From the NCBI GenBank assembly GCA_017643165.1, contig JAEPNY010000002.1:288402-352401 (forward strand): a DNA stretch of 64,000 nucleotides, in the 5' to 3' direction. Below, piece after piece: positions 3,520-29,444 of this stretch. The translations under genes were made by a program, and so were the position numbers. Source of the stretch: Psychroserpens sp. (lineage in GTDB: Bacteria > Bacteroidota > Bacteroidia > Flavobacteriales > Flavobacteriaceae). The notes beneath the pieces are model-generated. The model ran no database searches. It was not told the origin of the DNA and saw only the letters and a program-made list of their open reading frames with translations. Position 1 is the first letter of the stretch; the number at the start of each line of letters is the position of its first letter.

Positions 3520-3649
3520 AATACTAATTCTTCAAAGACATAGAAAACATAGAGAAATCAAAAACTTATTTCATTAATTGTATAGGTTTTGTATTGTTGG
3601 ATATATATGCTATTTTGTACTTGCAAATGAACAATATGAAAATCACTCT

Positions 3650-6628: not shown

Positions 6629-6687
6629 GGAAACTTAAGGATTCCTTAACAAAATATTATAAGTTGCATGTTATAACTAACACAATT

Positions 6688-9600
6688 ATGTATTCAAAAG
6701 TTCTAACATTTTTATTAATCCTATGTTCCACCACAATTTACGCTCAAAACGTAAATGTAACAGGAACTGTGACTGAGGCAACTTCAGGACAACCGCTCCC
6801 AGGTGTCAATGTCCTCATCAAGAACACATCTCGAGGTGCATCCACAGATTTTGATGGAAATTTTAGCCTCACGGATGTACCACTCAATTCTGTGCTAGTC
6901 TTTTCATACCTAGGCTATCAATCAAAAGAAGTGACTGTTGTAAATAATCAACCACTAAATGTGGTTCTCGACGAAGATTCACAATCGCTTGATGAAGTCG
7001 TAGTCATTGGTTATGGTACGCAGAAGAAAAAAGAAATTACTGGTGCTGTCTCCGTGGTTTCGAGTGAAACCATTGAAGATCTTAAACCAACACGTATTGA
7101 GCAGGCACTGCAAGGACAAGTGGCTGGTGTAAATATTGTTTCAAATTCCGGTTCGCCTGGGGCTGCTGCAACTATCAGTATACGTGGTGTATCTTCCAAT
7201 GGAGATACGCGTCCGTTAATATTAGTTGACGGTACTGTGGTTGAAGATTTAAGTGTAATCAATCCGAATGATATAGAATCGGTTAATGTATTAAAAGATG
7301 CAACTGCTGGTATATATGGTGTTCGTGCGGCGAATGGTGTAATTCTTATAACGACAAAAACTGGTCGAAAGAGTATGCCAATAACCGTTGAGTACAATGG
7401 TTATGCTGGTTTTCAGGAAACAACTCGAAAATTACCGTTGTTGAATGCTACAGAGTATGCGTTGTTGCTCAACGAAGCTTACGCAGCAAATGGAGATCCT
7501 TCACCATTTCCAGATGTATCTGGATTAGGACAAGGAACAGATTGGCAGGATGAAGTATTCGAAACTGCACCAATCGTGAGTAACGCTATCACTATTAAAG
7601 GTGGTGGAGAGAAATCAACATATGCATATAGTGGTTCATTTTTAACACAAGATGGTATTGTAGGTGGTAACAAATCAAACTTCTCACGATTTACACATCG
7701 TCTCGCATATGGCTTAGACTTTTTAGAAAATTTTAATCTTAATTCTGGTATCACTTGGACGACGACATCTAGACGCCAATTACCAGAGAATGGTATTGGA
7801 TCTGTTCTGTTTAATGCTATTAATATGGCGCCAACCTTTGGCGTTAATGACGCTGCGACAGGTTTAGGATTCGAAATAGTAAATCCGCGTCGTCAAATTG
7901 ATAATACATTCGATAGATTCTTAGTAGATAAGTTTAATGGTAACATCAATTTGTCTTATAAGTTTTTGGAGCACTTTACTGCCCAAGCCAGTTATCAATT
8001 TAACTATGCTGAGGTAGATAGAACATTATTCTCTCCGCAAATTGACTACGGTATACAAGGTACAGTAGATAAAGTATTTGATTTAGATAGAAGTCAGGTA
8101 CTTGAGACAAGAGACTTTTTTAGAGATTATACGTTTGATGCGTTCATTAAATATGAGCGTCTATTTAATGACACACACAATGTAAACGTATTATTGGGTA
8201 CCTCTGTATTTAAATCCACAGGAAATAACACTGGATTTGTAGGATTCGGAATACCAGGTAATTCTATTGCTAACGCATCTATAGAGCAGGCTTCAAGTGT
8301 TCAAAATATTTTTCCATTTGATACCACATTCGATGCAAGACTATTATCATATTTTGCTAGAGTACAATATGATTACAAAGGAAAGTACTTATTATCCGCT
8401 GTGATTCGTCGCGACGGTTCAAGTAATTTCGGTCCTGAGAACAAGTTTGGATATTTCCCTTCTGGTTCTGTAGGTTGGATCGTTTCTGAAGAATCATTCT
8501 TCAAAAGTGAATTCGTAAACTTTTTGAAATTAAGAGGATCTTATGGTATTCTTGGAAATGATAGAATTGGCGCTTTCAGATTCGTTTCTGTCTTAGACGG
8601 AGAAGGTGTTTATGTATTTGATGATAATTTACAGTTTGGTACTACGCCAGGTGCGATTTCTAACCCTGAGATAAAATGGGAAAGACAAAAGACATTAGAT
8701 ATTGGTCTTGATATGAGATTCTGGGACAATAGATTAGATCTTACATTAGACTATTATAATAAGAGAACAGAAGATTTATTAGTATCTCCTCCAGTGTCTG
8801 GGATTCTAGGTGCCTCTGGTCCTGGATCATCATCACCATTTATTAATGCGGGTATCGTAGAAAACAAAGGATTCGAATTATCCTTAGGTTTCACAGAGCG
8901 TTTCAATGAAAACACGAGATTAAGTATTAAGTATAACGTCGCTACGGTTGACAACAATGTTGTATCGGTGAGTGCTTCAGGTGATTTTATTCCTGGTGGG
9001 CAATTTGGAGTCGGACAGCTTGAACCAGCAAGAATGGAAGCTGGGCAACCTATTGGATACTTCAGAGGTTTTAGAACTGCTGGGATCTTCCAAAACCAAG
9101 CACAAATTGATAGTTCACCAGTTTTAAATGATAATACTTTACCAGGTGATTTGATTTTTGTTGACATTAATGGTGATGGTATTATTAATGACGATGATAG
9201 AACATATATTGGAGATCCTATTCCAGATGCAACAATGGGTCTAAATATCTCTTTCGATTACAAAAACTTTGATTTCGGTGCTTACGCTTTTGCATCAGTA
9301 GGTAATGACATTGTAAGAAACTATGAGCGTAACTTACCAAATGCCAACCGAACAACTTACTTCTTAGATCGTTGGAGAGGTGAGGGTACATCTAATAGCT
9401 TTCCTAGAGTGACTACAGGAGCAACAAATAATACCTTGTTCTCTGACTTTTACGTTGAAGATGGATCGTTTATAAGACTTCAAAATGTCCAATTAGGTTA
9501 TTCGTTTTCTTCGGAAATATTAGAGCGTTGGGGTCTTCAAAAGTTAAGAATTTATGTGTCTGCTAGTAACCTGTTTACGTTGACTGAATATAGCGGATTT

Positions 9601-9702
9601 GATCCGACTGCTTCCACTGGCCAACCTATTGGTGGTGGAATTGATTATGGTTTCTATCCAACACCAAGAACTTATTTATTAGGAATGAATTTAAAATTAT
9701 AA
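6688..9702 (+). CDS. SusC-like TonB-dependent outer-membrane glucan transporter
   Basis: Imports oligosaccharides across the outer membrane using TonB energy. The ATG at 6688 gives a clean signal peptide (YSKVLTFLLILCSTTIYAQ); the frame is open to 6664 but adds only eight polar residues. About 1004 residues. Domains: carboxypeptidase-regulatory-like domain (VTGTVTEATSGQPLPGVNV, residues 20-100), plug with the SusC-type motif SLDEVVVIGYGTQKKKEITG, then a 22-strand barrel ending FYPTPRTYLLGMNLKL. The next gene is SusD, 8 bp downstream, forming the usual SusCD pair. Enzymes in the locus (GH16, GH17, GH30, phosphorylase) indicate laminarin-type beta-glucan as the substrate; this is inferred from the locus, not from SusC itself. 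Confidence 0.96.
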   Translation: MYSKVLTFLLILCSTTIYAQNVNVTGTVTEATSGQPLPGVNVLIKNTSRGASTDFDGNFSLTDVPLNSVLVFSYLGYQSKEVTVVNNQPLNVVLDEDSQSLDEVVVIGYGTQKKKEITGAVSVVSSETIEDLKPTRIEQALQGQVAGVNIVSNSGSPGAAATISIRGVSSNGDTRPLILVDGTVVEDLSVINPNDIESVNVLKDATAGIYGVRAANGVILITTKTGRKSMPITVEYNGYAGFQETTRKLPLLNATEYALLLNEAYAANGDPSPFPDVSGLGQGTDWQDEVFETAPIVSNAITIKGGGEKSTYAYSGSFLTQDGIVGGNKSNFSRFTHRLAYGLDFLENFNLNSGITWTTTSRRQLPENGIGSVLFNAINMAPTFGVNDAATGLGFEIVNPRRQIDNTFDRFLVDKFNGNINLSYKFLEHFTAQASYQFNYAEVDRTLFSPQIDYGIQGTVDKVFDLDRSQVLETRDFFRDYTFDAFIKYERLFNDTHNVNVLLGTSVFKSTGNNTGFVGFGIPGNSIANASIEQASSVQNIFPFDTTFDARLLSYFARVQYDYKGKYLLSAVIRRDGSSNFGPENKFGYFPSGSVGWIVSEESFFKSEFVNFLKLRGSYGILGNDRIGAFRFVSVLDGEGVYVFDDNLQFGTTPGAISNPEIKWERQKTLDIGLDMRFWDNRLDLTLDYYNKRTEDLLVSPPVSGILGASGPGSSSPFINAGIVENKGFELSLGFTERFNENTRLSIKYNVATVDNNVVSVSASGDFIPGGQFGVGQLEPARMEAGQPIGYFRGFRTAGIFQNQAQIDSSPVLNDNTLPGDLIFVDINGDGIINDDDRTYIGDPIPDATMGLNISFDYKNFDFGAYAFASVGNDIVRNYERNLPNANRTTYFLDRWRGEGTSNSFPRVTTGATNNTLFSDFYVEDGSFIRLQNVQLGYSFSSEILERWGLQKLRIYVSASNLFTLTEYSGFDPTASTGQPIGGGIDYGFYPTPRTYLLGMNLKL

Positions 9703-9709
9703 TAAGACC

Positions 9710-11173
9710 ATGAAAAATTTAAAAATCACATTCGTTTTTATTTTACTGATTGTCATGGCTTCATGTAGTGATGACTTCGTTGATGTCAGTCCGAATAATG
9801 AAAACTCAGAAGACTTCTTCAATTCTGAAGAAGATTACCAAAACGCATTAATTGCGGCATATGATCTATTACAATCCACTTATCTAAATGTAATGCTAGG
9901 TGAAATCGCATCAGATAACACACTAGCAGGTGGAGAGAATCCTAATGATGTTCCTGGAATTCAAGAAATTGACGATATGATCCATACACCGATAAACGAA
10001 CAACTTCGAAGTATCTGGAGTTGGATGTATGCAGGTGTAAATCGTGCTAATTACATACTAGAATTTCAGAATAAAACTGATTTTGAGGGAAAAGAGGGTG
10101 TACTTGCACAAGCCAGGTTCTTACGAGCATATTATTATTTTGAATTAGTCAAGTGGTTTGGAGATATTCCTTTCGCTGTTGATACTCGACTTCAATTTGG
10201 AGATCAATTCGAAATTCCTCGTACAGCAAAAGAAACAGTATACGAACAAATAGAGTTAGACTTGATCTATGCCGCAGATAATCTACCTTATGTACAGCAA
10301 GAAACTGGGCGCGTCACCAAAGGTGCAGCACAAGCTCTACTTGGGAAAGTATATCTATATCAAGATAAATTTGCTGAATCTGCAAATGTGCTAGAAGATC
10401 TAATTAACAATGGTCCTTATGATCTGTTAACAGATTACAGCACAATGTTTGAGAATGATAATGAAAACAATATAGAATCTGTATTTGAAGTCCAATACAC
10501 CGATCTTGAAGGTGCTGGATTTGGATGTTTACAATGTAGTGAAGGAAATGTTGCCGTAGGATTTAACGGTATTCGATCTTATAACGGACCAGTTTTCGAA
10601 TCTGGGTTCAGCTTTAATGTTCCAACTCAGGAGGTTGTCAACGCTTTTGAGCCTGGTGATATGAGATTGGAAACTGCCATATTAGATATAGAGGCTTGGG
10701 CTGAACAAACTGGAGCTACATTTAGTACAGGTAATGAACATACAGGATACTATAATAGAAAGTATATCGCGCGTCAAGGTGATCTTAATACAGGAGATGC
10801 GAACTTAACAAATCCAAATAACTACAGAGCAATCCGATTTGCTGATGTTTTACTAATGGCAGCTGAAGCGCTTAACAGAGGAGGATTAAATGATATGCAA
10901 GCCCAAATGTATCTGAATCGTGTTAGAGAACGTGCATTTGGAAATACGAATAATAATATAACTGCTACTGGAACAGCACTAACAAATGCGATTTACCGTG
11001 AGCGTCGCGTAGAATTAGTTGGAGAAGGACATCATTTCTTCGATCTGGTAAGAACGGGTAGAGCAGCACAAGAAATAAATGGTTTCCAATCAGGAAAGCA
11101 TGAATTGTTTCCAATTCCGTTAGTTGAAATTCAATTGGCCGGAAATCAATGGCAACAAAACCCAGGATATTAA
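9710..11173 (+). CDS. SusD-like outer-membrane lipoprotein (RagB/SusD family)
   Basis: Surface glycan-binding lid of the SusC transporter, 487 residues. Lipobox at VMASCSDD. The N-terminal SusD-like region includes ENSEDFFNSEEDYQNALIAAYDLL. The TPR-rich family core is seen in QARFLRAYYYFELVKWFGDIPF and the family C-terminus in FADVLLMAAEALNRGG, ERRVELVGEGHHFFDLVRTG and HELFPIPLVEI. It is directly coupled to susC and followed after 6 bp by the PKD lipoprotein gene. Length and motifs are typical. Confidence 0.96.
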   Translation: MKNLKITFVFILLIVMASCSDDFVDVSPNNENSEDFFNSEEDYQNALIAAYDLLQSTYLNVMLGEIASDNTLAGGENPNDVPGIQEIDDMIHTPINEQLRSIWSWMYAGVNRANYILEFQNKTDFEGKEGVLAQARFLRAYYYFELVKWFGDIPFAVDTRLQFGDQFEIPRTAKETVYEQIELDLIYAADNLPYVQQETGRVTKGAAQALLGKVYLYQDKFAESANVLEDLINNGPYDLLTDYSTMFENDNENNIESVFEVQYTDLEGAGFGCLQCSEGNVAVGFNGIRSYNGPVFESGFSFNVPTQEVVNAFEPGDMRLETAILDIEAWAEQTGATFSTGNEHTGYYNRKYIARQGDLNTGDANLTNPNNYRAIRFADVLLMAAEALNRGGLNDMQAQMYLNRVRERAFGNTNNNITATGTALTNAIYRERRVELVGEGHHFFDLVRTGRAAQEINGFQSGKHELFPIPLVEIQLAGNQWQQNPGY

Positions 11174-11179
11174 AAAACA

Positions 11180-13267
11180 ATGACTATGAAGAAATTTAAA
11201 TTTATACTAACAGCCTTACTTCTTATAGCCTTTGTAGGTTGTGAAGAAGACGATAGAGAATTAGAGTATCTTGACGCTATTGAAGCGCCTTCTGAATTTG
11301 AAATTCAATTCAGAACAACACAGGATAATTCTGGTTTGATTACAATGACGCCAAGCGCCATTGGTGCTTCGAAATTTGATATTTCCTTTGGAGATGCTTC
11401 AGGTGATTCAGTTACATTGAATCCAGGTCAAAGTGTTGATCGTATCTACGAGGAAGGTAATTATACAATTATTGCAGTAGCAACTGCTCTAAATGGTCTC
11501 ACAACAGAAATTGAAAGATCCATAGATGTTGTGTTTATTTCACCTCAGAATTTAGAGGTGACCATTGAAAACGATGGTGTAGTTTCAAATACTGTGCGAG
11601 TAAATGCAACAGCTGAATTTGCAATTTTTTATGAAGTTGATTTTGGAGAGCCAGGTGATGATGACTTACGAACTGCCAATATTGGTGAAGAAATCGTTTT
11701 TGAATATCAAGCACCTGGAACTTATACAATAACCGTTTCTGCATTTAGTGCTGCTAACGCACCAACAGTGTATGTAGAAGAATTCGAAGTGACTGCTAAT
11801 GTCCAACCTATGGCTTCTGCACCAACACCACCATCACGAGCACCAGAAGATGTTATAGGTATCTTTAGTGAAGCATATGCTTACGATCCTGCGAATGATT
11901 TTTTCCCATTCTGGGGACAAAATAATCCGGGTTATGCAGCTAATGAATTTAACCTCAATGGCGACTTGATGTTACAGTATACGAATTTGTCATATCAAGG
12001 GATTCAGTTGGGTTCAAATACTGATGTGTCAGGCATGGAAATGCTGCATATTGATGTATGGACACCAGACGATATAGATGCACAAGTGTTCTTAATTAGT
12101 CCAGGACCAAACGAAACACCTTATGATCTTGATCTTGTAGAAGAGCAATGGACGTCTTTTGATATTCCATTATCGTTCTTTACAGATCAAAATCCATTAG
12201 TAGATCTCTCAGATATCATTCAGTTTAAGTTTGAAGGACAACCATCAGGTGCAGGTTCTGTATTTATTGATAATATTTATTTCTACAAAGCGCCTGCAAT
12301 GGGACCAACAATTACAGGAACATGGAAATTAGCATCTGAAGCAAATTCATTAGGTGTAGGACCATCTGTTGGTGATACACAATGGTTTAGCTGTGATGAT
12401 GCATGTGTCGCAGCAAGAGCGTGTTATTTTGATGATACGTACTTCTTCGGATTTGATGGTACATTCCAAAATGATCTGGGAGCAGAATCTTGGATCGAAG
12501 GATGGCAAGGTGGAGGTGATGCTTGTGGAGCTCCAGTTGCGCCACATGACGGCTCCAATCCAGCAACGTATAATTATGATGCTGGTGCAGGTACGATTAC
12601 AATTAATGGCGTGGGATCTTACATAGGATTGCCTAAAGCGGTTAATGCTGGCGAATTACCAGGTGTTGCAGTACCAAGTTCAATCACTTATAATGTTAAC
12701 CTTATCGATAACTTCAATATGGAGGTTTATATCGAAGCAGGGCCAGGTGTATTCTGGCAATATAAATTAGTTAAAGAATCTGAAGCGCCAAATCCATTAG
12801 CTGGAACATGGCAAATGGCTGCAGAAGCGAATTCATTAGGCGTTGGTCCATCAGTAGGTGATACGCAATGGTTTAGCTGTGATGATGCCTGTGTGGCAGC
12901 ACGAGCTTGCTATTTTGACGATCTGTATGTCTTTGGAGCAGATGGTAGCTTTATGAATGATCTAGGAGCAGAATCTTGGATCGAAGGATGGCAAGGTGGA
13001 GGCGATAGTTGTGGCGCACCTGTCTTCCCTCATGACGGTTCTAATCCAGCAACATATGCATATGATGCCGATGCTGGAACGATTACTATAAATGGTGAAG
13101 GATCTTACATTGGATTACCTAAGGCTGTGAACGCTGGAGAATTACCTGGTGTGGCACTACCTAGTTCGATTACTTATAACGTGACCTTTGTTGATGATAA
13201 TACTATCGAAGTTTACATCGAAGCTGGTCCAGGTGTATTTTGGCAATATAAGCTTATAAAACTCTAA
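11180..13267 (+). CDS. Multi-module surface glycan-binding lipoprotein with PKD domains and a duplicated C-terminal module
   Basis: A 695-residue exported protein in the usual place of a surface glycan-binding protein (SusE/F position), lipobox at LLIAFVGCEED. Two PKD-like beta-sandwiches occupy about residues 35-205. A module beginning APTPPSRAPEDVIGIFSEAY (214-371) recurs in the proteins at 17644 and 33040. Two near-identical modules follow (380-535 and 542-695), each with GVGPSVGDTQWFSCDDACVA, conserved Cys and Trp residues and the ending EAGPGVFWQYKL. A related module is in the next gene. No catalytic motif was seen. Binding of the polysaccharide at the cell surface is inferred. Confidence 0.85.
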   Translation: MTMKKFKFILTALLLIAFVGCEEDDRELEYLDAIEAPSEFEIQFRTTQDNSGLITMTPSAIGASKFDISFGDASGDSVTLNPGQSVDRIYEEGNYTIIAVATALNGLTTEIERSIDVVFISPQNLEVTIENDGVVSNTVRVNATAEFAIFYEVDFGEPGDDDLRTANIGEEIVFEYQAPGTYTITVSAFSAANAPTVYVEEFEVTANVQPMASAPTPPSRAPEDVIGIFSEAYAYDPANDFFPFWGQNNPGYAANEFNLNGDLMLQYTNLSYQGIQLGSNTDVSGMEMLHIDVWTPDDIDAQVFLISPGPNETPYDLDLVEEQWTSFDIPLSFFTDQNPLVDLSDIIQFKFEGQPSGAGSVFIDNIYFYKAPAMGPTITGTWKLASEANSLGVGPSVGDTQWFSCDDACVAARACYFDDTYFFGFDGTFQNDLGAESWIEGWQGGGDACGAPVAPHDGSNPATYNYDAGAGTITINGVGSYIGLPKAVNAGELPGVAVPSSITYNVNLIDNFNMEVYIEAGPGVFWQYKLVKESEAPNPLAGTWQMAAEANSLGVGPSVGDTQWFSCDDACVAARACYFDDLYVFGADGSFMNDLGAESWIEGWQGGGDSCGAPVFPHDGSNPATYAYDADAGTITINGEGSYIGLPKAVNAGELPGVALPSSITYNVTFVDDNTIEVYIEAGPGVFWQYKLIKL
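12317..13264 (+). repeat. Intragenic tandem duplication, 486-bp period
   Basis: Two copies start at 12317 and 12803, exactly 162 codons apart. The encoded modules are almost the same in sequence (for example both carry SWIEGWQGGGD and GSYIGLPKAVNAGELPGVA), while the DNA differs at many third positions. This indicates an older duplication kept under protein-level selection rather than a recent copy. Confidence 0.92.
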
Positions 13268-13286: not shown

Positions 13287-14321
13287 ATGATAACAAAAAG
13301 ATTATTTCATATAAGTTTATCGCTACTTGCGTTATTGTCTTTCTCAGCTTGTCAAGATGAGGATCAAGAATTCGGAAATGTAGTGGCACCAACGAACCTT
13401 AGTGTTTCGTTTACATTAGAAGGTCAAAGTGCCGAAAACCCTAATGGTGATGGATCAGGTCTTGTGACATTTACTGCAACGGCTGATAATGCATTAGTTT
13501 ATAAATACTCATTTGGAGATAATACTTCTGAAGAAGTAACAGCTTCCGGAAGTATTACACATCGATTTTCTGTTCAAGGATTAAATACATACACGGTAAA
13601 CGTTGTAGCGACAGGAACGGGAGGAGCACCGACAACAACAACATTTGAGATTGACGTTTTTAGTGCCTTTGACGATGTCGAAGCACGAGCGTTCTTAACA
13701 GGTGCGACGCTTACCGATGACGGCAATGGAAACTTGAGTTTAGAATTAACAGAACCATCTAGCAAAACATGGTATCTCGATACGGCCTCATCAGGTCACC
13801 TTGGTGTTGGACCAACATTAGCATTTGATCTTCAGATAAATGGTGGTGTTGCCAGTGGATATTGGTTCCCAGCGTTTTTTGCCGCTGCTCCAGGACAGTT
13901 TTGTGGTGATGATAACTCATCATGCTTCTGTGATGATGAATTGACATTTACAATCGATACGGATAACAATATTACGTTCGAATTAAATAACAACGGTCAA
14001 ACATTTTTTAATGTGAATCATCAAGCCATTGTTGGAGGTGCAGGTAGCGGAGATGAATGTTTTGATTTTGACACGTCTGGAGTAAGTGATGTGACGCTGG
14101 CGCCTACAGCTGAAGATTGGTCTCAAGTAGGAGATCCAGATTTCTCACCAAGAGGAACTGTGCTTAATTTCACTAACGACGGCTTTATGTCTTATTATGT
14201 GTCTTCGTCGTCTTATGAAATACTATCAATAACTGAGGATGCCATTCATTTAAGGACATTAGATGGGTTAGATTCCAATCTTGCGTGGTATGTTAAATTT
14301 TCAACCACACAACCTGATTAA
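13287..14321 (+). CDS. PKD-domain lipoprotein, probable second surface glycan-binding protein
   Basis: A 344-residue lipoprotein (lipobox LLSFSACQDE). A PKD-like domain spans about residues 35-130 (KYSFGDNTSEEVTASGSI, STFEID-like end). The rest (about 135-344) is a Cys-rich beta module related to the duplicated module of the preceding gene, with the shared features HLGVGP, a Trp/Phe-rich segment and CFCDDELTF. It lies 19 bp after the preceding gene. No catalytic residues were recognised. A glycan-binding role is inferred from position and shared modules. Confidence 0.8.
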   Translation: MITKRLFHISLSLLALLSFSACQDEDQEFGNVVAPTNLSVSFTLEGQSAENPNGDGSGLVTFTATADNALVYKYSFGDNTSEEVTASGSITHRFSVQGLNTYTVNVVATGTGGAPTTTTFEIDVFSAFDDVEARAFLTGATLTDDGNGNLSLELTEPSSKTWYLDTASSGHLGVGPTLAFDLQINGGVASGYWFPAFFAAAPGQFCGDDNSSCFCDDELTFTIDTDNNITFELNNNGQTFFNVNHQAIVGGAGSGDECFDFDTSGVSDVTLAPTAEDWSQVGDPDFSPRGTVLNFTNDGFMSYYVSSSSYEILSITEDAIHLRTLDGLDSNLAWYVKFSTTQPD

Positions 14322-14463: not shown

Positions 14464-17400
14464 ATGAGAAACAAAGCTCTAAGTTTAATTCTATTATTTA
14501 TTACCGCGACGGTCTTTGCACAAACCGATAAGGTTTCGGTTGTTACAAATGCAGACGGCTCTAAGCTTGTAGTAAATGGGGAAGATTTTATGATTAACGG
14601 TATGAATTGGGATTTTATTCCAATCGGTACAAATACCTTAACTGCTGAATTCTGGAAAAAACCAGATGATATTATTAAAGCAGGTTTAGACGCTGAAATG
14701 TCACTACTTCAAAATATGAATGTTAATGTGATTCGTCAATATACTGGAGTACCAGCTCGATGGATTCAATATATCTATGAAGAATACGGAATTTATACCA
14801 TGCTGAATCATTCATTCGGTCGATACGGTTTAACGATTGATGGTGTATGGACACCAATTACAATTTATGATGATGAAAGAACAGCCGAATTATTAATGTC
14901 TGAAGTTACCACATTGGTAGAAGAGTATAAAGATACACCTGGTATCTTACTATGGCTTTTAGGTAATGAAAATAACTATGGATTATTCTGGCAAGGTGCA
15001 GAAACTGAAGATTTTCCTGATGGTGAAGAGAAAATTCGTGCCGTTGGAGAATTGAGAGGTCGCGCGATGTATAAACTTATGAATGATGCAACTAATGCGA
15101 TTAAGGCCATCGACCCTAATCACCCAGTTGCTATTTGTAACGGTGATCTATTGTTCTTAGATATCATTGCTGAAGAATGTCCAGATGTAGATATCTATGG
15201 TACGAATATGTATCGTGGGGAATCTTTTGGAGATGCCTTCACTAGAGTACGAGATGAATATGGGAAACCAGTACTTTTCACAGAGTTTGGTTCAGATGCC
15301 TATAATGCGATCGAAAATCAAGAAGATCAAAAAATGCAGGCCTATTACATGGTCAACAATTGGAAAGAAATCTATGAGAATGCCGCTGGATTAGGAAAAG
15401 CAAACAATTCAATTGGTGGATTTACATTTCAATTTTCTGATGGTTGGTGGAAAGCTGGATTTGATGATAGAAAAGATGCTGATACGCATCAAACTGAGTC
15501 AACTTGGAATGCAGGTGGATATAAATGGGATGAAGCTTTTCCTGGAGCAAATAATATGAATGAGGAGTGGTTTGGTATTTGTGCGAAAGGACCAACGACT
15601 CCAAGAGGATTATACACGTTATACCCAAGAGCAGCATACTATGCGCTTAAGGAAGCACATGCACTAGATGTATATGCAGATGGTCAGAACTTGGACTTCG
15701 TTCAAAACTACTTTAAAGAAATTAATTTAATGGATGCTGTATTAAGAGCTCGTGGTGATAAAGCGGCACTTGGTGGAGGTAGTAGTGAAAAAATTAGACT
15801 TAGTCGTTTAACGGCAGAGTGGACTAGTTTTAATACTGGCGGTTCATTGATTACAACTCCAGAAAATGAGGATCCTGATGGGACATCGTTCCCGAATCAA
15901 TTAGGATTCGATCATATGCAATCATATTTCTTAGGTGTGGAAGGAAATCCAGCACCAAATATGAGAGCTGAAGCTGTTTTTAATTTTATTGGTCGAGTGG
16001 CGCAAAATCCAATTGATGAGATTTTCTATGAGAACAGAGCGCGTAATGTAAGTGTTGTGACCGATCAAGGTACAGTCGATTTAGAGGATGTTAACAGATT
16101 AAATGTGTATCAAGCAGAATTCGAATGGAACGCTAAAGACTTCGATCTTAGAGGATTCTATCGTACTGGACATTATCACTGGGGATATGAAGGTGATTTC
16201 TTCGGACTTTATCCTGAAGCGAATTATGGTCCTAATTTAGATATTTATGGTGGTGAGATCCTTGGTGTAGAAATAGATGGAAAAAGAGCTCTTAATGGCT
16301 TGAAAGCTGCTATTGGACCACAATTATGGTGGGGCGCTAACCCAACAATGCTTTTTAAATATCATAAACGCGTAGGAAATTATGATTTAACTGGTATTTA
16401 CCATAGAGACGTAGAAACAGATCTTCAGTTCGATGCATCTGGTAGACGTATCTTAGATCCTAATCAAGTACGATCGGGTATTATTCCAGCGTGGCCTACT
16501 GAAAGAGCAACGTTAGTAGTAGAAAGAGAATTAGGAAAGTTCGACGTTCAGTTAGGAGGTATCTGGTCTGGAAATCCATTAAATGGGAGTTCATTCCAAG
16601 ATATAAATAGTAACGGTGATGTCGTAGTAGATAAAATCGAAGGTGCCGATAATTGGGGTGGTAAAGCCAAAGTTATGTACCAAGGTGGTAAGTTCAATTG
16701 GTATGCTCAAGGAGCTGTAATGGGACTTGTTGCTAACGGTGGAGCCGATCAGACGCAAACATTCACTGGATGGAGATTAAAAGATACAGGCAGTGGAAAC
16801 CAAACGAACTTCTTAACTGGTTTTACATATACTGTTGGAGACTTTCAAATTGCACCTAACTTCTTGTGGCAAAAGCCTATTGTTGATGCAATGCCTAATA
16901 ATGGGCCAGCACCTGGTCGTTTAAGAAACTTTATTGATGATCCATTTGCTGTACGATGGAATCGTGAAACTACAGCTGGTGAGATCCTCTTAACTTATGA
17001 TCCTACTCCAGGAACATGGATGTATGAATGGGATAATGATAGAGCAGAAGATGCAAAATTTGCAATGAATTTAGGATTTGTTTATAGATCATTACCAACT
17101 ACAATGGATGCACATATTGGTTTCAATGCAAATCGTGAGTTTTTTGCATTTCCAAATTCTGCACCAGCAATAGACTTATGGGAAGTACACTCGAGAATGG
17201 TTTCTAAATTATCTAATGAATTAGGAATCATCGGAAACTTCTACTATGGAAATGGACAAGGTAATGGTGATAGTACCAGAGAGATTACCAGATTTGGAGG
17301 TGATGTAAGAATGCTTTACAAGAACTTTAGAGTAGAGTCTCATGTCAAAGTTAATGACTGGGGTCCATTTGATTATCATAGAGATTTCAACTTAACATTC

Positions 17401-17634
17401 CCATTACAATTAATGTTAGATGTGTCTACGACGTTAGGAAAACCAGACTGGTTTATCTTACCGAGTACACGTATTGGTATTAGAGGAACATGGCGATCGC
17501 TAGATCAGTTCTCACCAAGATACTTACCAAATCAGGCGGAATTAAATATGGATCCACCTTTGAGTCCAGTTGGTTTCGGAGATGGTACAGAGTGGGAGAT
17601 CAGAACATACATACATATCAATATTGGAAAATAA
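14464..17634 (+). CDS. Clan GH-A glycosidase fused to a probable outer-membrane beta-barrel
   Basis: A 1056-residue exported protein (signal peptide LSLILLFITATVFAQ). Residues about 25-400 form a GH2/GH5-like TIM barrel: acid/base candidate Glu169 in LLWLLGNENNYG and nucleophile candidate Glu274 in KPVLFTEFGSDAY, with DIYGTNMYRG between. From about residue 430 to the end the sequence is a series of amphipathic strands with aromatic girdles and short polar turns (YDLTGIYHRDVE, FDVQLGGIWSGNP, FNWYAQGAVMGLV, VRMLYKNFRVESHVKV, EWEIRTYIHINIGK), like a 16-18-strand outer-membrane barrel. No sugar-binding module or T9SS tail is seen. It probably anchors a glucanase in the outer membrane. The enzyme part is firm at clan level; the barrel is inference from pattern. 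Confidence 0.8.
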   Translation: MRNKALSLILLFITATVFAQTDKVSVVTNADGSKLVVNGEDFMINGMNWDFIPIGTNTLTAEFWKKPDDIIKAGLDAEMSLLQNMNVNVIRQYTGVPARWIQYIYEEYGIYTMLNHSFGRYGLTIDGVWTPITIYDDERTAELLMSEVTTLVEEYKDTPGILLWLLGNENNYGLFWQGAETEDFPDGEEKIRAVGELRGRAMYKLMNDATNAIKAIDPNHPVAICNGDLLFLDIIAEECPDVDIYGTNMYRGESFGDAFTRVRDEYGKPVLFTEFGSDAYNAIENQEDQKMQAYYMVNNWKEIYENAAGLGKANNSIGGFTFQFSDGWWKAGFDDRKDADTHQTESTWNAGGYKWDEAFPGANNMNEEWFGICAKGPTTPRGLYTLYPRAAYYALKEAHALDVYADGQNLDFVQNYFKEINLMDAVLRARGDKAALGGGSSEKIRLSRLTAEWTSFNTGGSLITTPENEDPDGTSFPNQLGFDHMQSYFLGVEGNPAPNMRAEAVFNFIGRVAQNPIDEIFYENRARNVSVVTDQGTVDLEDVNRLNVYQAEFEWNAKDFDLRGFYRTGHYHWGYEGDFFGLYPEANYGPNLDIYGGEILGVEIDGKRALNGLKAAIGPQLWWGANPTMLFKYHKRVGNYDLTGIYHRDVETDLQFDASGRRILDPNQVRSGIIPAWPTERATLVVERELGKFDVQLGGIWSGNPLNGSSFQDINSNGDVVVDKIEGADNWGGKAKVMYQGGKFNWYAQGAVMGLVANGGADQTQTFTGWRLKDTGSGNQTNFLTGFTYTVGDFQIAPNFLWQKPIVDAMPNNGPAPGRLRNFIDDPFAVRWNRETTAGEILLTYDPTPGTWMYEWDNDRAEDAKFAMNLGFVYRSLPTTMDAHIGFNANREFFAFPNSAPAIDLWEVHSRMVSKLSNELGIIGNFYYGNGQGNGDSTREITRFGGDVRMLYKNFRVESHVKVNDWGPFDYHRDFNLTFPLQLMLDVSTTLGKPDWFILPSTRIGIRGTWRSLDQFSPRYLPNQAELNMDPPLSPVGFGDGTEWEIRTYIHINIGK

Positions 17635-17643
17635 AAAAAGCAA

Positions 17644-19590
17644 ATGATGAAAAATATGAGACGACTTAATTTAAACAAAATAGCAGCACTTGGGTTGCTC
17701 TTGATCACAGCAGCGAGTTGTGAAAGAGATTTTACCAATGAGGTAGTCGATGCGACTTTTCCAAATATTGCAGAAGTCTACACCGATAATCCAGTGAATT
17801 TAACAGATCAATTCTTTATTTCATTTAGTCCAACAGAAGGCGCTAATCCTAATGCATTTGGAACGGATGATAATGAAGCATATGAAGGCCAGTCCTCAAT
17901 ACGAATAGACGTACCAGCACCAAATGATCCAGATGGAGGTTTTGTTGGCGGTATATTTTTAGATCGTGGCGCTGGTAGAGACCTTACTGGTTTTGATGCC
18001 TTGACCTTTTGGGTAAAGGGCTCAACAACGGCGGTCGTGGATGTATTCGGATTTGGAACAGACTTTGTTCAAGACCGTTATGCAGCTGACATTAATGGTG
18101 TAACACTTTCTACAGATTGGAAACAGGTTATTATTCCAATCCCAGATCCTTCAAAACTAGTTCAAGAACGTGGAATGTTCAAATTCGCGGCAGGAACAGC
18201 AAGTACTGGTGGGTTAGGTTATACGATCTGGATTGATGAAATTAGATTTGAAAACTTAGGAACGGTTGCTCAACCAAGACCAGCTATCGTAGGTGGTCAG
18301 GACATAGTTGAGCAAACATTTAATGGATCATCACGAACTGTTAACGGTTTACAGCAGACATGGAATTTGGCGAATGGTCAAGATGTCACGGTTTTACCAG
18401 CTCCTGGTTATTTTGATTTTAGTTCTTCTAATGTCTTGTCGGCAGAAGTTGACGAAGCTGGTGTTGTTTCTATTCTAACTAGTGGAACTGCAACCATTAC
18501 AGCAGAGTTAGCAGGACTTGAAGCTGAAGGATCATTGACCTTAGAATCTTTAGGTGATTTCACTCAGGCACCAACACCTGATGAAGATCCAGCGAATGTA
18601 ATATCTATCTTTAGTGACGCTTATCAGAATGTACCTGTAGATTATTATAATGGATTCTTCGCACCTTTCCAAACAACATTGGGTGGTGCTCCTCCAATTG
18701 ATATTAGTGGAAATCAGGTTATAAATTATACAGAACTGAATTTTGTTGGTATTGGAACTTTCTTAAACGTTAATCCTATCGATATAACGCAAATGACACA
18801 TTTACATGTAGATATTAATGTTCAAGAAGCAATTGATGCGGGAGATTTTATTAGACTTGAGATATTGAACGGTGTTCAAACCTCGAATGAAATATCAGGA
18901 TCACGTACTATTAGTGGTAATGATCTAACGAATAATGCATGGGAAAGTTTTGATATTCCTTTAGGTGAATTTGCTGGATTGTCTGCAAGAGATCAAGTAG
19001 GATTATTATTCTTTATTTCTGATGCAACAATTTCAAACATCTATGTAGACAACATTTATTATTATAAAGAAGTTTTAGACCCAACACCTAATGTAGACGA
19101 TTCTGGAGCAACTGAAGTTGCGTTACCAGTTGGATTTGAATCAACAACATTGACTTACAATTTCTTCGGATTTGAAGGAGCGTTTCCAAGTATAATACCA
19201 AATCCAGATGCTACGGGAATTAATCCGACTGGGACAGTAATGGCTACTGAGAAGTCTGTTGGAGCTCAATTCTTCGCAGGAAATGTACTAGACTTAGATG
19301 CACCAATGGATTTATCAACGACTCAGAAACTTAGAATTAAAGTTTGGTCGCCTAAAGCCAATATACCTATTAGAGTAGCGCTAGAGACCGCAGGTGGTGG
19401 TAATCAAATATTTATTGATGCCAATGTCACAACTGCTAATACATGGGAAGAATTAGAATTTGACTTTGCTGGTAATTATAACCCTGCTCTGGATTATCAA
19501 AGAGTTATTGTGTTCTTTGAGTTTATAGATGGTTTGGCAGGAGACGGTTCAACCTATTATTTTGACGATATCCAATTATTAAATGAATAA
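17644..19590 (+). CDS. Multi-module carbohydrate-binding lipoprotein
   Basis: A 648-residue lipoprotein (lipobox LLITAASCERD). Domains in order: CBM11-like jelly roll (about 40-215, ending GYTIWIDEIRFEN), an Ig-like BIG2-type segment (about 235-300, SGTATITAELAGLEAEGSLT), the shared module starting APTPDEDPANVISIFSDAYQN (309-476, ending ISNIYVDNIYYYKE), and a fourth jelly roll (about 485-648, ending YYFDDIQLLNE). No catalytic motif was seen. It lies 9 bp after the glycosidase-barrel gene and 5 bp before GH16, so it is part of the same transcription unit. It probably holds glucan at the surface for the neighbouring enzymes. Confidence 0.82.
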   Translation: MMKNMRRLNLNKIAALGLLLITAASCERDFTNEVVDATFPNIAEVYTDNPVNLTDQFFISFSPTEGANPNAFGTDDNEAYEGQSSIRIDVPAPNDPDGGFVGGIFLDRGAGRDLTGFDALTFWVKGSTTAVVDVFGFGTDFVQDRYAADINGVTLSTDWKQVIIPIPDPSKLVQERGMFKFAAGTASTGGLGYTIWIDEIRFENLGTVAQPRPAIVGGQDIVEQTFNGSSRTVNGLQQTWNLANGQDVTVLPAPGYFDFSSSNVLSAEVDEAGVVSILTSGTATITAELAGLEAEGSLTLESLGDFTQAPTPDEDPANVISIFSDAYQNVPVDYYNGFFAPFQTTLGGAPPIDISGNQVINYTELNFVGIGTFLNVNPIDITQMTHLHVDINVQEAIDAGDFIRLEILNGVQTSNEISGSRTISGNDLTNNAWESFDIPLGEFAGLSARDQVGLLFFISDATISNIYVDNIYYYKEVLDPTPNVDDSGATEVALPVGFESTTLTYNFFGFEGAFPSIIPNPDATGINPTGTVMATEKSVGAQFFAGNVLDLDAPMDLSTTQKLRIKVWSPKANIPIRVALETAGGGNQIFIDANVTTANTWEELEFDFAGNYNPALDYQRVIVFFEFIDGLAGDGSTYYFDDIQLLNE

Positions 19591-19595
19591 AAGCA

Positions 19596-20528
19596 ATGAA
19601 TAAGAAAAGAAAATTTAAAATCACTGGCGCAGCCATAGCTGCAGCCTTATTTTTCACAGTGAGTGTAGTTAGTTTTACAGGCTGTGAAAATGACGAAACT
19701 CAAACTGTAGCTACCTTAACAAATGTTACGTTAGCTCAAGAATTTGATGTAGATGGACCACTTGATTCGGCAATTTGGTCGTTTGATATTGGTGACGGAT
19801 CTGCAGAAGGAATCCCAGGATGGGGAAATAATGAACTTCAATATTATACCGATAGACCAGAAAATGTGAGAATTGAGGATGGCGTCCTTAAAATTACAGC
19901 CATTCAAGAACAATTTGAAGGGTCTGGTTATACTTCGGGAAGAATTGTCACTAAAGCTAAGTTTGAGCAAAAATATGGACGTTTTGAAGCCCGTATGAAA
20001 TTACCTTGGGGACAAGGTATGTGGCCAGCCTTTTGGTTATTAGGTTCTAACCGAGAAGCAGTTGCAGATAATGATCCTAATACACTTGTGTGGCCATTTT
20101 GTGGAGAAATTGATATCATGGAAAATCGTGGTCAAGAACCTACGTTAATGAATGGTACAATTCATGGTCCTGGTTATGCTGGAGGTGATGCAATTACTAA
20201 AGCTCACGAGTTAGAAAACGAACGATTCGATACAGATTTTCACATCTTTGGAATTGAATGGGGTCCAGGCTACATTAATTTCTATGTAGATGATGTATTG
20301 TATAATCAATTGACACCTGCCGATCTTCCAACTGGTCCAGAACCAGAATTTTTAGACGAATTTCTACCTGGCGCCGAATATGATAATCTTTGGAATACAT
20401 GGGTTTATGATCAAGAATTCTACATCATAATTAATCTTGCTGTTGGTGGCAATTACCCAGGACCACCAAACGAGAACACAGTATTCCCACAAACTTTGGA
20501 AGTTGATTACGTGCGCGTATATCAATAA
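19596..20528 (+). CDS. GH16 endo-beta-1,3-glucanase (laminarinase) lipoprotein
   Basis: Cleaves internal beta-1,3 bonds in laminarin at the cell surface or in the periplasm. 310 residues with a lipobox at VVSFTGCEND. The GH16 signature GEIDIMENRG carries nucleophile Glu171, Asp173 and acid/base Glu176. Other laminarinase features are IPGWGNNELQYYTD near the N-terminus, MKLPWGQGMWPAFWLLG, TIHGPGYAGG and the C-terminal strand QTLEVDYVRVYQ. It is a single catalytic domain of normal length, without attached binding modules, which are instead on the neighbouring lipoproteins. It is the last gene before a strong hairpin terminator. Confidence 0.96.
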   Translation: MNKKRKFKITGAAIAAALFFTVSVVSFTGCENDETQTVATLTNVTLAQEFDVDGPLDSAIWSFDIGDGSAEGIPGWGNNELQYYTDRPENVRIEDGVLKITAIQEQFEGSGYTSGRIVTKAKFEQKYGRFEARMKLPWGQGMWPAFWLLGSNREAVADNDPNTLVWPFCGEIDIMENRGQEPTLMNGTIHGPGYAGGDAITKAHELENERFDTDFHIFGIEWGPGYINFYVDDVLYNQLTPADLPTGPEPEFLDEFLPGAEYDNLWNTWVYDQEFYIIINLAVGGNYPGPPNENTVFPQTLEVDYVRVYQ

Positions 20529-20613: not shown

Positions 20614-23600
20614 ATGGCAAATCTGTCTTTGACAAACGAAATACAAATGAGCGAAAACGATTTAAACAACGCTTCAATGGAGCATGTCTTAATAAATAAT
20701 GAATACTATTATAAAATCACAAATAGTGATGACATGCGTCCATTTTTTATGAGTATTGTTAGTGATTCCAACCATTGGATGTTTATTTCAAGCAATGGTG
20801 GTTTAAGTGCTGGACGCAAAAACAGTGAATATTCATTTTTTCCGTATTACACAGATGATAAGATTACAGAATCTGCAGAAATTACGGGGAGTAAATCGAT
20901 ATTCAGAGTAAGAAGATATCACGATGTGTCTTTGTGGGAACCTTTTTCAATACGTCAAGAAGGACTTTATCGAACCACTAGGAATTTATATAAAAACACC
21001 TACGGGAATAAGGTGATTTTTGAAGAAATTAATCACGACTTAGAACTAACCTTCCGCTACCAGTGGAATTCAAGTAATGAATTTGGTTTTGTTAAGCGTT
21101 CAACATTGATTAATAACTCCGATATTAATGTAGAAGTATCATTTGTTGATGGATTCCAAAATATTATGCCATATGGCGTACCATCTGATACACAAACACG
21201 TGTGAGTAACTTAGTAGATGCTTACAAAAAAAGTGAGCTAGAAAAAGATGCTGGACTTGGCATATATGCCCTTAGTGCAATTATTGTCGATAAAGCCGAA
21301 CCTAGTGAGGCTCTTAAAGCTAATATCGCTTGGTCTCTTGGGTTAGAACATCCAAGATATCTCTTGTCTTCGCTTCAATTGAAAGACTTTAGACATCATG
21401 GAGGTGTGGCTGAAGAAGTCGATGTACGTGCTGAGAAAGGCGCATATTTCGTTAACGCCGATATCACTTTAAATGGGAATTCAGAAGGTGAGTGGCTTAT
21501 TATTGGAAATGTAAATCAAGATCATGATGGAATCGCAGCCATCAAACACCGCATTCTTACAGACAGAGAACTACTTAATAAAGTAAATGAAGATATTGAA
21601 AACGGCACACAGCGTTTAATAAAGTTGAATGCTTCATCAGATGGATTACAATTAACTGCAGATAAACAAAGAGATACAAGGCATTTTGCGAATACGCTAT
21701 TTAATATCATGCGTGGCGGTATTTTTGATGATCACTATAATATAGAACTTTGGGATTTTAGAAATTACCTCGCCAAAGCGAATAAAAAGGTATACTCTAA
21801 AGCACAGGAAATACTTAAAACACTACCAGAGTTATTTTCAGTGACACATTTAAAAGACATCGCCTATAAGTCTGATGATAAAAACTTTAGAAGACTTTGT
21901 TTAGAATACATGCCATTAAAGTTTAGTCGTCGTCATGGTGATCCGAGCAGACCTTGGAACAAGTTTTCTATTAATACACGAAGCGAAGTTGACGGTTCGA
22001 AAATACTCGATTATGAAGGAAACTGGCGAGATATTTTCCAAAATTGGGAAGCCTTAGCTCACGCGTATCCTGAGTTTATAGAAAGTATGATTCATAAATT
22101 TCTGAATGCTACAACATTTGATGGATACAACCCTTATCGTGTAACTAAAGATGGCTTCGATTGGGAGACAATTGAACCAGACGATCCATGGTCATATATT
22201 GGGTATTGGGGTGATCATCAGATCATTTACTTGCTGAAGTTTTTAGAATTCATAGAAGATCATCAACCAGGAAAATTGGCAAGTTACTTCGAACAGGATT
22301 TATTTGTTTATGCCAATGTACCTTACAAGATTAAAAGCTATCAAGATACACTAAAGAATCCGAAGGATACTATAGATTTTGACGATGAGCTAGATGAGAA
22401 AATACGAATTAAGCGTACTGAATTAGGAGCTGATGGTGCGCTGTTAAGAGATCAGAATTTCTTCATCTGTAAAGTCAACTTTATAGAAAAGATATTAGCC
22501 ACTGTTTTAGCTAAGGTATCTAATTTTATTCCTGAAGGAGGTATTTGGTTAAATACACAGCGACCAGAATGGAATGATGCTAACAACGCTCTTGTTGGGA
22601 ATGGAGTCTCAATGGTAACACTTTACTATTTGAGACGCTTTTTACATTTCTTTGAAGGTGCGATCAGCCATTCAAATACAGATCGAACAGAAATATCCGA
22701 AGAACTTCTTGAATTCTTCAGTGCTGTTGTATCCACTTTAGATAGGAACAAGGATATACTTAAAGGTACTGTTTCTGATACTGAAAGAAAAACGGTATTA
22801 GATGGATTAGGTGAAGCTGGAAGTCATTACCGAGAAACCATTTATAATAAAGCCTTTACAGGTCATAAGTCTTCTATTACCATGGAAGAACTATCGCATT
22901 TCATTTCAATTACGCAGAAATACTTAGAGCACACAATTAATGCGAATAAAAGAGATGACAATTTATTCCATGCCTATAATATAATGTCATTAAATGGCGA
23001 TTCAGAGATAGCTATTTCCTATCTGGATGAAATGTTAGAAGGTCAGGTGGCAGCATTGAGTTCTGGATATTTAGAGTCATCTGAAACTTTAAGACTGCTT
23101 GATGCGCTGAAGCAAAGTGCGCTGTTTAGACATGATCAATATAGTTATATCCTGTATCCGAATAAAAATTTACCAAGATTTACAGTAAAAAATACGATAC
23201 CTACTGAAGCAGTAGAAAAATCAGAATTACTTAAAAAGTTGCTTAACGATGGTAATCGAAGAGTTATTACAAAAGACATTAATAATGTTTATCATTTCAA
23301 CGGTAATTTTAATAATGCCAGTAGTTTAGAAGACGCTTTAGATCAATTAGATAGAAGTGAGTATGGTACACTCATTGAACAAGATAAGTACCTATTGCTT
23401 CAAATTTTTGAAGATGTATTTAATCATAAAGCATTCACGGGAAGATCAGGTACATTCTATGGTTATGAAGGATTAGGATCAATTTATTGGCATATGGTTT
23501 CTAAACTTCTTCTTGCAGTTCAGGAATGTTGCTTAAAGGCTGTTCACGATAAAGAAAGTCCTGAAGTAATTGGAAGGCTCTTAGAACATTATTACGAAAT

Positions 23601-28535: not shown

Positions 28536-29444
28536 ATGTCGTATAGAGACGAAGATTATCGCGCGTATGATGGCGTGAATTTCATTGAACACTCAGGAAT
28601 TGATTTTAGTCAGTATTCATTAGAAGAGCTGACCAAACTTTGGAGGCAAACCTTGAAAAAAGGAATGCACGGTATCTGTTTTAGTATGTATGAGGATGGG
28701 CAGGTGCCAGGTGATACAATAACTGAAGAGCAAGTTGAGCGTCGAATCAAAATATTAAAACCATACTCAAAATGGGTACGCTCATTTTCATGTATTGAAG
28801 GCAATGAGCACGTACCTCGTATGGCGCATAAACACGGTATGAAAACGCTAGTTGGAGCATGGTTAGGAGATGATAAGGAGGATAATGAAAAAGAAATCGA
28901 AGGATTGATTCAATTGGCTAAGGAAGGTGTTGTAGATATTGCAGCAGTTGGAAATGAAGTGTTGTATCGTGATGATCTTACTCTAGATGAGTTATTAGAT
29001 TATATATGGCGTGTAAAACAAGCCATTCCTGATGTGCCTGTTGGTTATGTAGATGCCTATTATGAGTTTTCAAGACATCCACAACTTGTAGAAATAAGTG
29101 ATGTCATTTTAAGTAATTGTTATCCATATTGGGAAGGATGTCACATTGATGGCTCATTAGCGCATATGCAACAAATGTTCGGTCAAGCCACGCATGCCGC
29201 AAATGGCAAAAAGGTAATTATAACTGAAACCGGATGGCCTAGTGAAGGTGGTAGTCTACGAGGTGCGATGTCTTCTGCGGAAAATGCTATGAAGTATTTT
29301 ATTAACACCCAACTATGGGCGAAAAAAGCGAATATCGAAACCTTTTATTTTTCTTCTTTTGACGAGTCATGGAAAACAGGTGATGAAGGTGATGTAGGCG
29401 CTTATTGGGGCCTATGGGATAAGCATGAAAACTTAAAATTCTAA
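28536..29444 (+). CDS. GH17 enzyme, cytoplasmic
   Basis: A 302-residue GH17 domain with no signal peptide. Acid/base Glu141 is in AVGNEVLYRDD and the nucleophile Glu231 is in IITETGWPSEG. Length is typical of a bare GH17 barrel. In contrast to the exported GH17 at 24100 it should act inside the cell, on oligosaccharides taken up by the neighbouring transporter, either hydrolysing them or remodelling them by transglycosylation before phosphorolysis. Several bacterial single-domain GH17 proteins are transglycosylases, so both are possible. It is the last gene of the second block, followed by a hairpin terminator. Confidence 0.92.
   Translation: MSYRDEDYRAYDGVNFIEHSGIDFSQYSLEELTKLWRQTLKKGMHGICFSMYEDGQVPGDTITEEQVERRIKILKPYSKWVRSFSCIEGNEHVPRMAHKHGMKTLVGAWLGDDKEDNEKEIEGLIQLAKEGVVDIAAVGNEVLYRDDLTLDELLDYIWRVKQAIPDVPVGYVDAYYEFSRHPQLVEISDVILSNCYPYWEGCHIDGSLAHMQQMFGQATHAANGKKVIITETGWPSEGGSLRGAMSSAENAMKYFINTQLWAKKANIETFYFSSFDESWKTGDEGDVGAYWGLWDKHENLKF

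Follow-up and report, generated by a model that had tools for sequence, protein, structure and literature searches.

Can a single protein both let a sugar through the outer membrane and cut it? This question is raised by an open reading frame (ORF) of Psychroserpens sp., located in a 64,000-nucleotide stretch of contig JAEPNY010000002.1 (positions 288,402 to 352,401, hereafter “the window”). The ORF (14464..17634, + strand) is a single uninterrupted frame of 1056 amino acids (aa) with an ATG start, and its product joins an N-terminal glycoside hydrolase (GH) to a C-terminal part predicted to be an outer-membrane beta-barrel. Laminarin, the sugar to which the neighboring genes point, ranks among the main storage sugars of algae, and SusC/SusD pairs are the explanation given for how Bacteroidota take it up; a conserved barrel-enzyme protein persisting where SusC/SusD are not found would, if true, be a second uptake design, and the fusion hints at an overlooked coupling of sugar uptake to cutting. 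The explanation we favor, with slightly more belief than doubt, is that of a hydrolase-coupled outer-membrane protein, in which a barrel of about 24 strands and a periplasm-facing clan GH-A enzyme, whose activity is predicted, would serve beta-1,3-glucan uptake.

Conservation of the fusion and its enzyme domain

The fusion of the enzyme and the C-terminal part in one frame is real, and it is a conserved architecture that also occurs full-length in other families of the phylum; the original prediction had pictured it as unusual, and surveys at the family, class, and phylum levels remove the idea of an oddity of one genome. In the family survey, some match was found in 149 of 397 genomes and the fusion, whole or in pieces, in 83 of the 397 (counted by hand); a close GH part stood alone in three (G258, G176, and G199), G048, which is cut by a contig end, not being counted as barrel-less. 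Among named genomes, at least 589 relatives were confirmed, and the 80 that were kept are full-length or nearly so, with 67–77% identity. The class survey gave matches in 33 of 395 genomes, 17 of them full-length, the others being L262, which is GH-only with a stop, and short matches to the enzyme part. In the phylum survey, the barrel profile matched 35 of 395 genomes with 11 family labels; 33 of the 36 matches listed lie in frames of 1028–1084 aa, three are fragments, and no free-standing barrel was seen among these 36 at E ≤ 0.001. The full-length alignment used below comprises 127 fused rows, rows with X being left out; in the family sets and tree rows, X letters, which mark gaps in the record, were deleted before aligning.

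The original prediction placed the catalytic motifs of a clan GH-A enzyme, Glu169 and Glu274, in the first 400 residues, and this claim held up. Indeed, N168-E169 and E274 are invariant in 127 of 127 rows, and the two glutamates align with E137 and E220 of BuGH158 (PDB 6pal), the catalytic pair of that enzyme as given in the excerpted text of its description (PMC7157763). A clan GH-A glycosidase is a TIM barrel with an Asn-Glu after strand 4 and a Glu after strand 7, and the N-terminal part is, by its motifs, such an enzyme. Its family was less easy to name. Residues 33–283 of the window protein match the GH2-type TIM-barrel model GH2_C of Pfam (E = 1.5e-7), and the same match is found in 39 of 40 family rows. 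GH2 enzymes carry jelly-roll and immunoglobulin-like (Ig-like) domains before their TIM barrel. Membership in GH2 was rejected, as the match starts at residue 33, right behind the signal peptide, and only the TIM-barrel model matches. The closest solved structures are GH158 endo-beta-1,3-glucanases, namely 9oro (E = 1.4e-6) and BuGH158 itself, 6pal (E = 1.8e-4), which share the catalytic Glu pair with the fusion; the similarity is weak and partial, and the TIM barrel is followed by a predicted membrane barrel in the fusion and not by the C-terminal Ig-like domain with which BuGH158 ends (excerpt of PMC7157763).

A “GH2 beta-glycosidase” is listed in laminarin loci of Muricauda in the text seen of PMC13188888 and is apparently the fusion gene, the locus being of the same type; SGIU01000001 and VCNI01000001, two contigs that the paper names, are those of our loci L042 and L098, with the order regulator, fusion, lipoprotein, GH16. 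The terms “beta-barrel” and “outer membrane” each have 0 occurrences in the main text of that paper, and the label hides more than half of the protein. No description of the architecture was found in the literature searched by title and abstract opening, a search with subscription journals mostly outside its scope.

The glucanosyltransferase family GH72 was matched by five of 40 rows, with a best E of 1.2e-5, and by two free relatives of the enzyme, one of them above the curated cut-off. These matches would suit a protein that exports or processes the cell's own beta-glucan, with no uptake at all; we hold this to be most improbable, given the catabolic neighbors (GH16, GH149, GH17, GH30, and a major facilitator superfamily (MFS) transporter) and the fact that no glucan synthase was found among the 16 other window proteins scanned. 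Elsewhere in the genome of the window, a second distant GH-A homologue lies in a 618-aa frame (L002, C3:336402-336959; 34% over residues 73–277).

The predicted outer-membrane barrel

Residues 444–1056 are predicted to form an outer-membrane beta-barrel, and one has to keep in mind that no known family says so. In the window sequence, no Pfam family matches the last 636 residues (after residue 420) at E ≤ 1, and a 40-row profile of the C-terminal part has no PDB match at E ≤ 10; the three Pfam families touched in this part by 7, 1, and 1 of 40 rows (best E 0.046) were set aside as chance-like. The argument starts from an alternation score, defined as the number of runs of at least eight alternating columns per 100 residues and averaged over the family (127 rows for the fusion). 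The C-terminal part scores 3.30, next to 2.20 for the SusC barrel, 3.28 for Porin_O_P, and 3.41 for DUF6029, which is counted as a barrel by assumption; eight non-barrel families (SusD, PKD2, the CBM-like lipoprotein, GH16, GH149, GH17, GH30, and MFS) score 0.41–1.74, and the enzyme part of the same proteins 0.50. Single sequences are less telling: the window sequence scores 2.04 against a mean of 1.25 for 2000 shuffles (standard deviation 0.39, maximum 2.99), the 127 fused rows have a mean of 2.40, 11 E. coli outer-membrane proteins range from 1.21 to 2.69, and 64 other E. coli proteins, hand-picked and including the outer-membrane channel CusC, have a mean of 1.17 and a maximum of 2.16. As barrel and non-barrel classes overlap in these single-sequence scores, it is the family average that carries the weight of the argument.

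The original prediction had also described this part as a run of amphipathic strands with aromatic girdles and short turns. The amphipathic strands and the short turns stood at the level of sequence, 22 of 24 strands (boundaries set by hand) being amphipathic by more than 0.5 units; the girdles are only weak, Tyr and Trp making up 0.13, 0.09, and 0.14 of the hydrophobic face in its inner, middle, and outer thirds. Aliphatic residues make up 0.64 of that face in its middle third, and charged residues or Asn/Gln 0.05. In the 24-strand model described below, connections average 19.2 residues after up-strands and 2.5 after down-strands, with two exceptions, an inner connection of 15 residues and an outer one of a single residue; as the strand boundaries are hand-set, the p-value for these lengths is descriptive only. 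An outer-membrane barrel is marked by amphipathic strands whose turns are short at one end of the barrel and whose loops are long at the other, and the family pattern has these features.

Covariation within the family (165 rows, 77 effective) gives a second line of evidence, as strong couplings fall on the antidiagonals of neighboring strands, for example around 747–784, 645–683, and 961–983. We defined 26 candidate strands by hand after the coupling results were known, and then scored all blocks. Out of 25 consecutive strand pairs, seven couple more strongly than each of the 300 non-consecutive blocks, 11 are surpassed by no more than two of these, and 16 are supported in the sense that at most 16 of the 300 are higher; neighbors are paired without a break between candidate strands 8 and 15. 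In the C-terminal part, six pairs-of-pairs share one antidiagonal and one shares a diagonal among the top 60 pairs (three and seven in the enzyme part), with 11 and 6 among the top 120 (13 and 15) and 15 and 9 among the top 200 (22 and 34). The 14 chosen registers stayed positive in three random half splits, single ones going down to 0.2–1.7. The best non-consecutive block joins strands 18 and 20, with a weaker one between 16 and 18, so candidates 17 and 19 are perhaps not strands, which would leave 24. A segment model applied to the family profile returned 26 and 24 strands at its two best-fitting penalties, and 28 and 20 at the remaining ones; the best-fitting two were tuned on nine E. coli barrels with strand numbers and trimming points taken as given, and their error on these same nine was the smallest (10 and 8 strands in total). 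The same model gives 24 strands to the SusC barrel, which we take to have 22. We thus speak of about 24 predicted strands, with both ends on the short-turn (periplasmic) side.

Several observations weigh against a barrel of this kind. Nine of the 25 consecutive pairs couple weakly; the figure of 24 strands depends on having discarded two candidates on the basis of the same couplings; closure of the first strand with the last was not seen among the blocks, where it ranks 73rd of 300, the last strand being nearly invariant; and the outer third of the hydrophobic face is only 0.28 aliphatic with 0.24 charged or Asn/Gln, which leaves the strand boundaries or the membrane span uncertain. Comparing the C-terminal profile with SusC, DUF6029, and Porin_O_P by hhalign gave no similarity, all probabilities being below 1%; hhalign hardly links known barrels to one another either, and Pfam, searched at E ≤ 0.001, also leaves the SusC barrel unmatched.

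A soluble beta-sandwich or propeller region would fit the lack of any matched barrel family and of visible closure, and single PKD2 sequences (0.67–3.23) reach higher alternation than any fused row (at most 3.11). Strand-density scores likewise fail to split the C-terminal part from PKD beta-sandwiches: simple strand density and an initial segment model told beta-rich proteins from alpha/beta ones but could not distinguish barrels from PKD beta-sandwiches, and were not relied on. We nevertheless consider a soluble region improbable, since the family-averaged alternation lies above all eight non-barrel families, the unbroken pairing extends beyond the four strands of a propeller blade, short connections alternate with long ones, and no cysteine occurs in 155 of 165 rows.

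Two further elements are strongly conserved. Between the enzyme and the first predicted strand, the linker keeps L427, R430, and D432 in 125, 122, and 124 of 127 rows, respectively. In an outer loop (residues 570–597), W573, Y575, E576, and D578 are each present in 127 of 127 rows, and this loop is a candidate constriction or sugar-contact loop of the predicted barrel.

The side of the enzyme and its free relatives

An active site placed at the cell surface was one of the options raised by the original prediction; our evidence tips the balance the other way, and the enzyme domain probably faces the periplasm, given the strand parity, the lack of acidic tags in lipoprotein relatives, and the plain signal peptides of barrel-less relatives. 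As to parity, the segment model ranks N-in/C-in first among the four topologies for the family profile, whichever of the four penalties is used, ahead of N-out/C-in by 0.1–1.3 units, and at a penalty of 4.0, the nine E. coli barrels favor N-in, with one tie. As to the tags, acidic residues behind the lipobox mark surface export in this phylum, as stated in the part of PMC5080379 consulted. A tag of at least two acidic residues at +2 to +6 is found in 21 of 24 SusD, 22 of 22 PKD2, 68 of 73 GH16, 100 of 134 CBM-like, 5 of 50 GH17, and 10 of 29 GH30 lipoproteins of these loci, which come from two collections, so that the counts may include a genome twice. Among the distant free relatives of the enzyme, 20 of 22 are lipoproteins, and the tag is found in 0 of these 20 (the count omits L147, L222, and L223 of the 25 distant free relatives). 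Four close barrel-less relatives (L143, L144, L145, and L152) have plain signal peptides, signal peptides being assigned throughout by reading the sequence; the lipobox flag of L143 falls inside its signal peptide, and L152 has a short remainder of the barrel behind a stop. The fusion itself does not look like a surface lipoprotein with lipobox and acidic export signal: no lipobox is found in 133 of 139 full-length fusions, and the other six flags lie inside the signal peptide and were judged artefacts. The sorting domain TIGR04183 of the type IX secretion system (T9SS) has no match in the window protein at E ≤ 1.

On the other side of the scale, the window sequence alone favors N-out at two of four penalties, and the topology score is a poor guide, since it misplaces the C-terminus of BtuB and FepA and that of the SusC and Porin_O_P profiles. 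Couplings between enzyme and barrel indicate no side; they were left unused, being dominated by groups of columns varying together. Two distant relatives, L147 (4914-6647) and L222 (773-2512), carry a T9SS tail, so the wider enzyme family also has probably secreted members.

These tails, and a close relative fused to a GH16-like domain, could speak for an enzyme that is brought to the cell surface in the manner of enzyme autotransporters and degrades laminarin outside. Type V secreted esterases do join an N-terminal enzyme to a C-terminal barrel in one chain, as the fusion does, and type V barrels have 12 or 16 strands. The barrel predicted here, with about 24 strands (24–26 at the best-fitting penalties), is roughly double that size, no POTRA or autotransporter Pfam model matches at E ≤ 1, and the enzyme side is probably the opposite one by the parity, tag, and signal peptide arguments above. 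Membership in type V was rejected on the Pfam result and the strand number, and we regard transport of the enzyme to the surface as unlikely. The relative with the GH16-like domain in place of a barrel lies at L143:2882-4957 (−) in genome G199, the GH16 label being given by reading.

The free relatives also bear on the history of the barrel. In a tree of 54 of the 127 fused rows, four barrel-less close relatives, and 25 distant free relatives, the fused rows and the four barrel-less ones group together, apart from the 25. Supported branches force at least four separate changes, the root and the long branches (L143 and L144) being uncertain, and by this tree the barrel was lost at least four times, as separate losses among fused rows. 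The free form sits at a different position: it directly follows GH17 in 19 of 20 loci, GH149 is present in 20 of 20, and no fusion is found in any of the 20. Conversely, it was found in none of 80 fusion loci at E < 1e-30; there, GH17 and GH30 are adjacent at 37 places. The first family scan scored at most two candidates per genome, and co-occurrence was therefore recounted by direct search, which found the free form in 41 of 397 genomes. Both forms occur in two genomes (G147 and G223) where 8.6 would be expected (Fisher p 0.003, for genomes that are not independent and with the 83 fusion genomes counted by hand). With its place after GH17, its absence from fusion loci, and this low co-occurrence, the free relative and the fusion look like alternative forms of one step. 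On contig C149 of G147, a free form with a TGA inside the match adjoins the start of the fusion. In two free-relative loci (L322 and L334), the MFS frames measure 785 and 800 aa, against 470–551 aa for the other MFS frames listed, and are perhaps enzyme-transporter fusions.

Laminarin loci with and without SusC/SusD

The fusion belongs, by its GH16, GH149, GH17, and GH30 neighbors, to a laminarin locus (Table 1). Across 80 loci, homologues are found of the CBM-like lipoprotein in 77, GH16 in 74, GH149 in 59, GH17 in 54, and GH30 in 38, all of them minimum counts, since contig ends truncate many loci; on the short contigs L060 and L095, none of these five genes is present. In 57 of 63 loci, the region upstream of the fusion holds a homologue of the regulator.

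These 63 loci, which have at least 9 kb upstream, served to count SusC/SusD. Both are present in 23 loci and one of the two in another two (L039 and L083), and neither was found in 38 of 63 within the examined stretch, which ends about 10 kb from the fusion, so that copies may lie farther away; a SusC of 69% identity, for example, occurs in the genome of L081, apparently about 12 kb past the stretch on the same contig. SusC/SusD are optional in fusion loci, and where neither was found, the fusion is the only outer-membrane channel candidate recognised. Thirty-three of the 38 genomes (without L041, L053, L075, L082, and L106) were searched whole with the window SusC. In 30, no SusC exceeds 40% identity to that of the window, the best listed match being at 33–40% in 20, weaker and unlisted in two, and lacking at E ≤ 1e-100 in eight; the three others (L069, L081, and L093) have a SusC of 46–69% identity. 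Among genomes whose loci carry SusC/SusD, 10 of 23 were chosen and L074 dropped, and nine of nine have a SusC of 49–64% identity to the window's.

The proposal of an enzyme joined to its own pore, also made in the original prediction, fits these locus data, with the pore as a prediction. What we infer, namely a closed barrel, a periplasmic side, the substrate, transport, and trapping, could work as follows. The Sec pathway would export the fusion protein, whose C-terminal part would fold into an outer-membrane barrel of about 24 strands, while the N-terminal enzyme would stay in the periplasm at the mouth of the barrel. Surface lipoproteins (the glycan-binding protein and GH16) would bind and cut laminarin outside; the beta-1,3-gluco-oligosaccharides would cross the outer membrane, and the fused enzyme would cut or rearrange them as they emerge, which would trap them. 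In loci with SusC/SusD, the fusion would work beside them; in loci without, it would be the entry route. A bolder version, which we put forward only tentatively and as appreciably less probable than the general explanation, is that of a SusC/SusD-independent channel for laminarin oligosaccharides whose own periplasmic glucanase cuts the arriving chains, uptake being driven by cleavage and not by TonB; with the downstream lipoprotein and GH16, it would replace SusC/SusD in a large share of loci. Laminarin-type loci without susCD have been reported, with one case, not shown to include the fusion gene, in PMC10811738.

Two facts temper a role in uptake: the locus of the window itself encodes SusC/SusD, and most of the SusC/SusD-less genomes searched have other SusC proteins, which could carry laminarin. 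The barrel might then be an anchor only, tethering a periplasmic enzyme and carrying no sugar, with SusC/SusD or other receptors doing the import. Membrane tethering is indeed common in the family, as the mostly lipoprotein free relatives in the same kind of cassette show, and the barrel has been lost at least four times. However, a conserved barrel of 613 residues with a highly conserved loop exceeds a tether's needs, and the 38 loci in which SusC/SusD were not found within the examined stretch fit it poorly; we rate the anchor as doubtful, while giving it more room than a surface-exposed enzyme. The reading that we retain is the hydrolase-coupled outer-membrane protein.

Two known systems invite comparison with it. 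SusC/SusD importers likewise combine, within a glycan locus, a barrel in the outer membrane with surface lipoproteins, and the last strands look alike (RTYLLGMNLKL in the fusion, RTYIHINIGK in SusC); the fusion differs in having an enzyme domain and no detectable profile similarity. Membership in the TonB-dependent receptors was rejected, as the plug and CarboxypepD_reg domains, present in the neighboring SusC, are absent from the fusion. The Formosa MFS-GH17 fusion FORMB_24740 likewise unites a transporter and a beta-1,3-glucan enzyme in a laminarin locus, and a coupling of cleavage and uptake has been proposed for it (text seen of PMC6246565); it is a helical inner-membrane protein with GH17 at its C-terminus, whereas the barrel predicted here lies in the outer membrane and the enzyme is N-terminal.

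Table 1. Features of the fusion gene and of the surrounding laminarin locus (window coordinates).
Feature	Position	Strand	Evidence or remark
Whole ORF, GH-A enzyme and predicted outer-membrane barrel	14464..17634	+	1056 aa; full-length relatives
Predicted signal peptide, residues 1-20 (...VFAQ), without lipobox	14464..14523	+	By reading
Clan GH-A TIM-barrel enzyme domain, residues 20-416	14521..15711	+	Pfam GH2_C; GH158 structures
Glu169, predicted acid/base, motif GNEN	14968..14970	+	127/127 rows; aligned with BuGH158 E137
Glu274, predicted nucleophile, motif TEFG	15283..15285	+	127/127 rows; aligned with BuGH158 E220
Linker from enzyme to first strand, residues 417-443	15712..15792	+	Conserved L427, R430, D432
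Predicted outer-membrane beta-barrel, residues 444-1056, about 24 strands	15793..17631	+	Alternation, segment model, couplings
Highly conserved outer loop, residues 570-597, HYHWGYEGDFFGLYPEANYGPNLDIYGG	16171..16254	+	Family conservation
Regulator of the locus, C-terminal part weakly matching LuxR-type response-regulator models	3578..6451	+	
SusC-like TonB-dependent receptor	6664..9702	+	Pfam plug and CarboxypepD_reg
SusD-like lipoprotein	9710..11173	+	Pfam SusD_RagB
PKD-type lipoprotein	11180..13267	+	Below Pfam cut-off
PKD-type lipoprotein	13287..14321	+	Below Pfam cut-off
Lipoprotein, probable surface glycan-binding protein (“CBM-like”)	17644..19590	+	No Pfam match; homologue in 77/80 loci
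GH16 lipoprotein, probable surface laminarinase	19596..20528	+	Acidic tag in 68/73 lipobox-bearing homologues
GH149 beta-1,3-glucan phosphorylase	20614..24087	+	NCBIfam equivalog, 1803 bits
GH17 lipoprotein	24100..25386	+	Acidic tag in only 5/50 lipobox-bearing homologues
GH30 lipoprotein	25408..26925	+	
MFS sugar transporter	26940..28505	+	
Second GH17	28536..29444	+	

Directly behind the laminarin cassette, the window encodes a large lipoprotein with VCBS-like repeats (29531-32827), named by reading. Further on, at 37893-43604, lies a complete ligase-associated DNA damage response set (exonuclease, ATP-dependent ligase, DEXH helicase, and PdeM), which is a known system.

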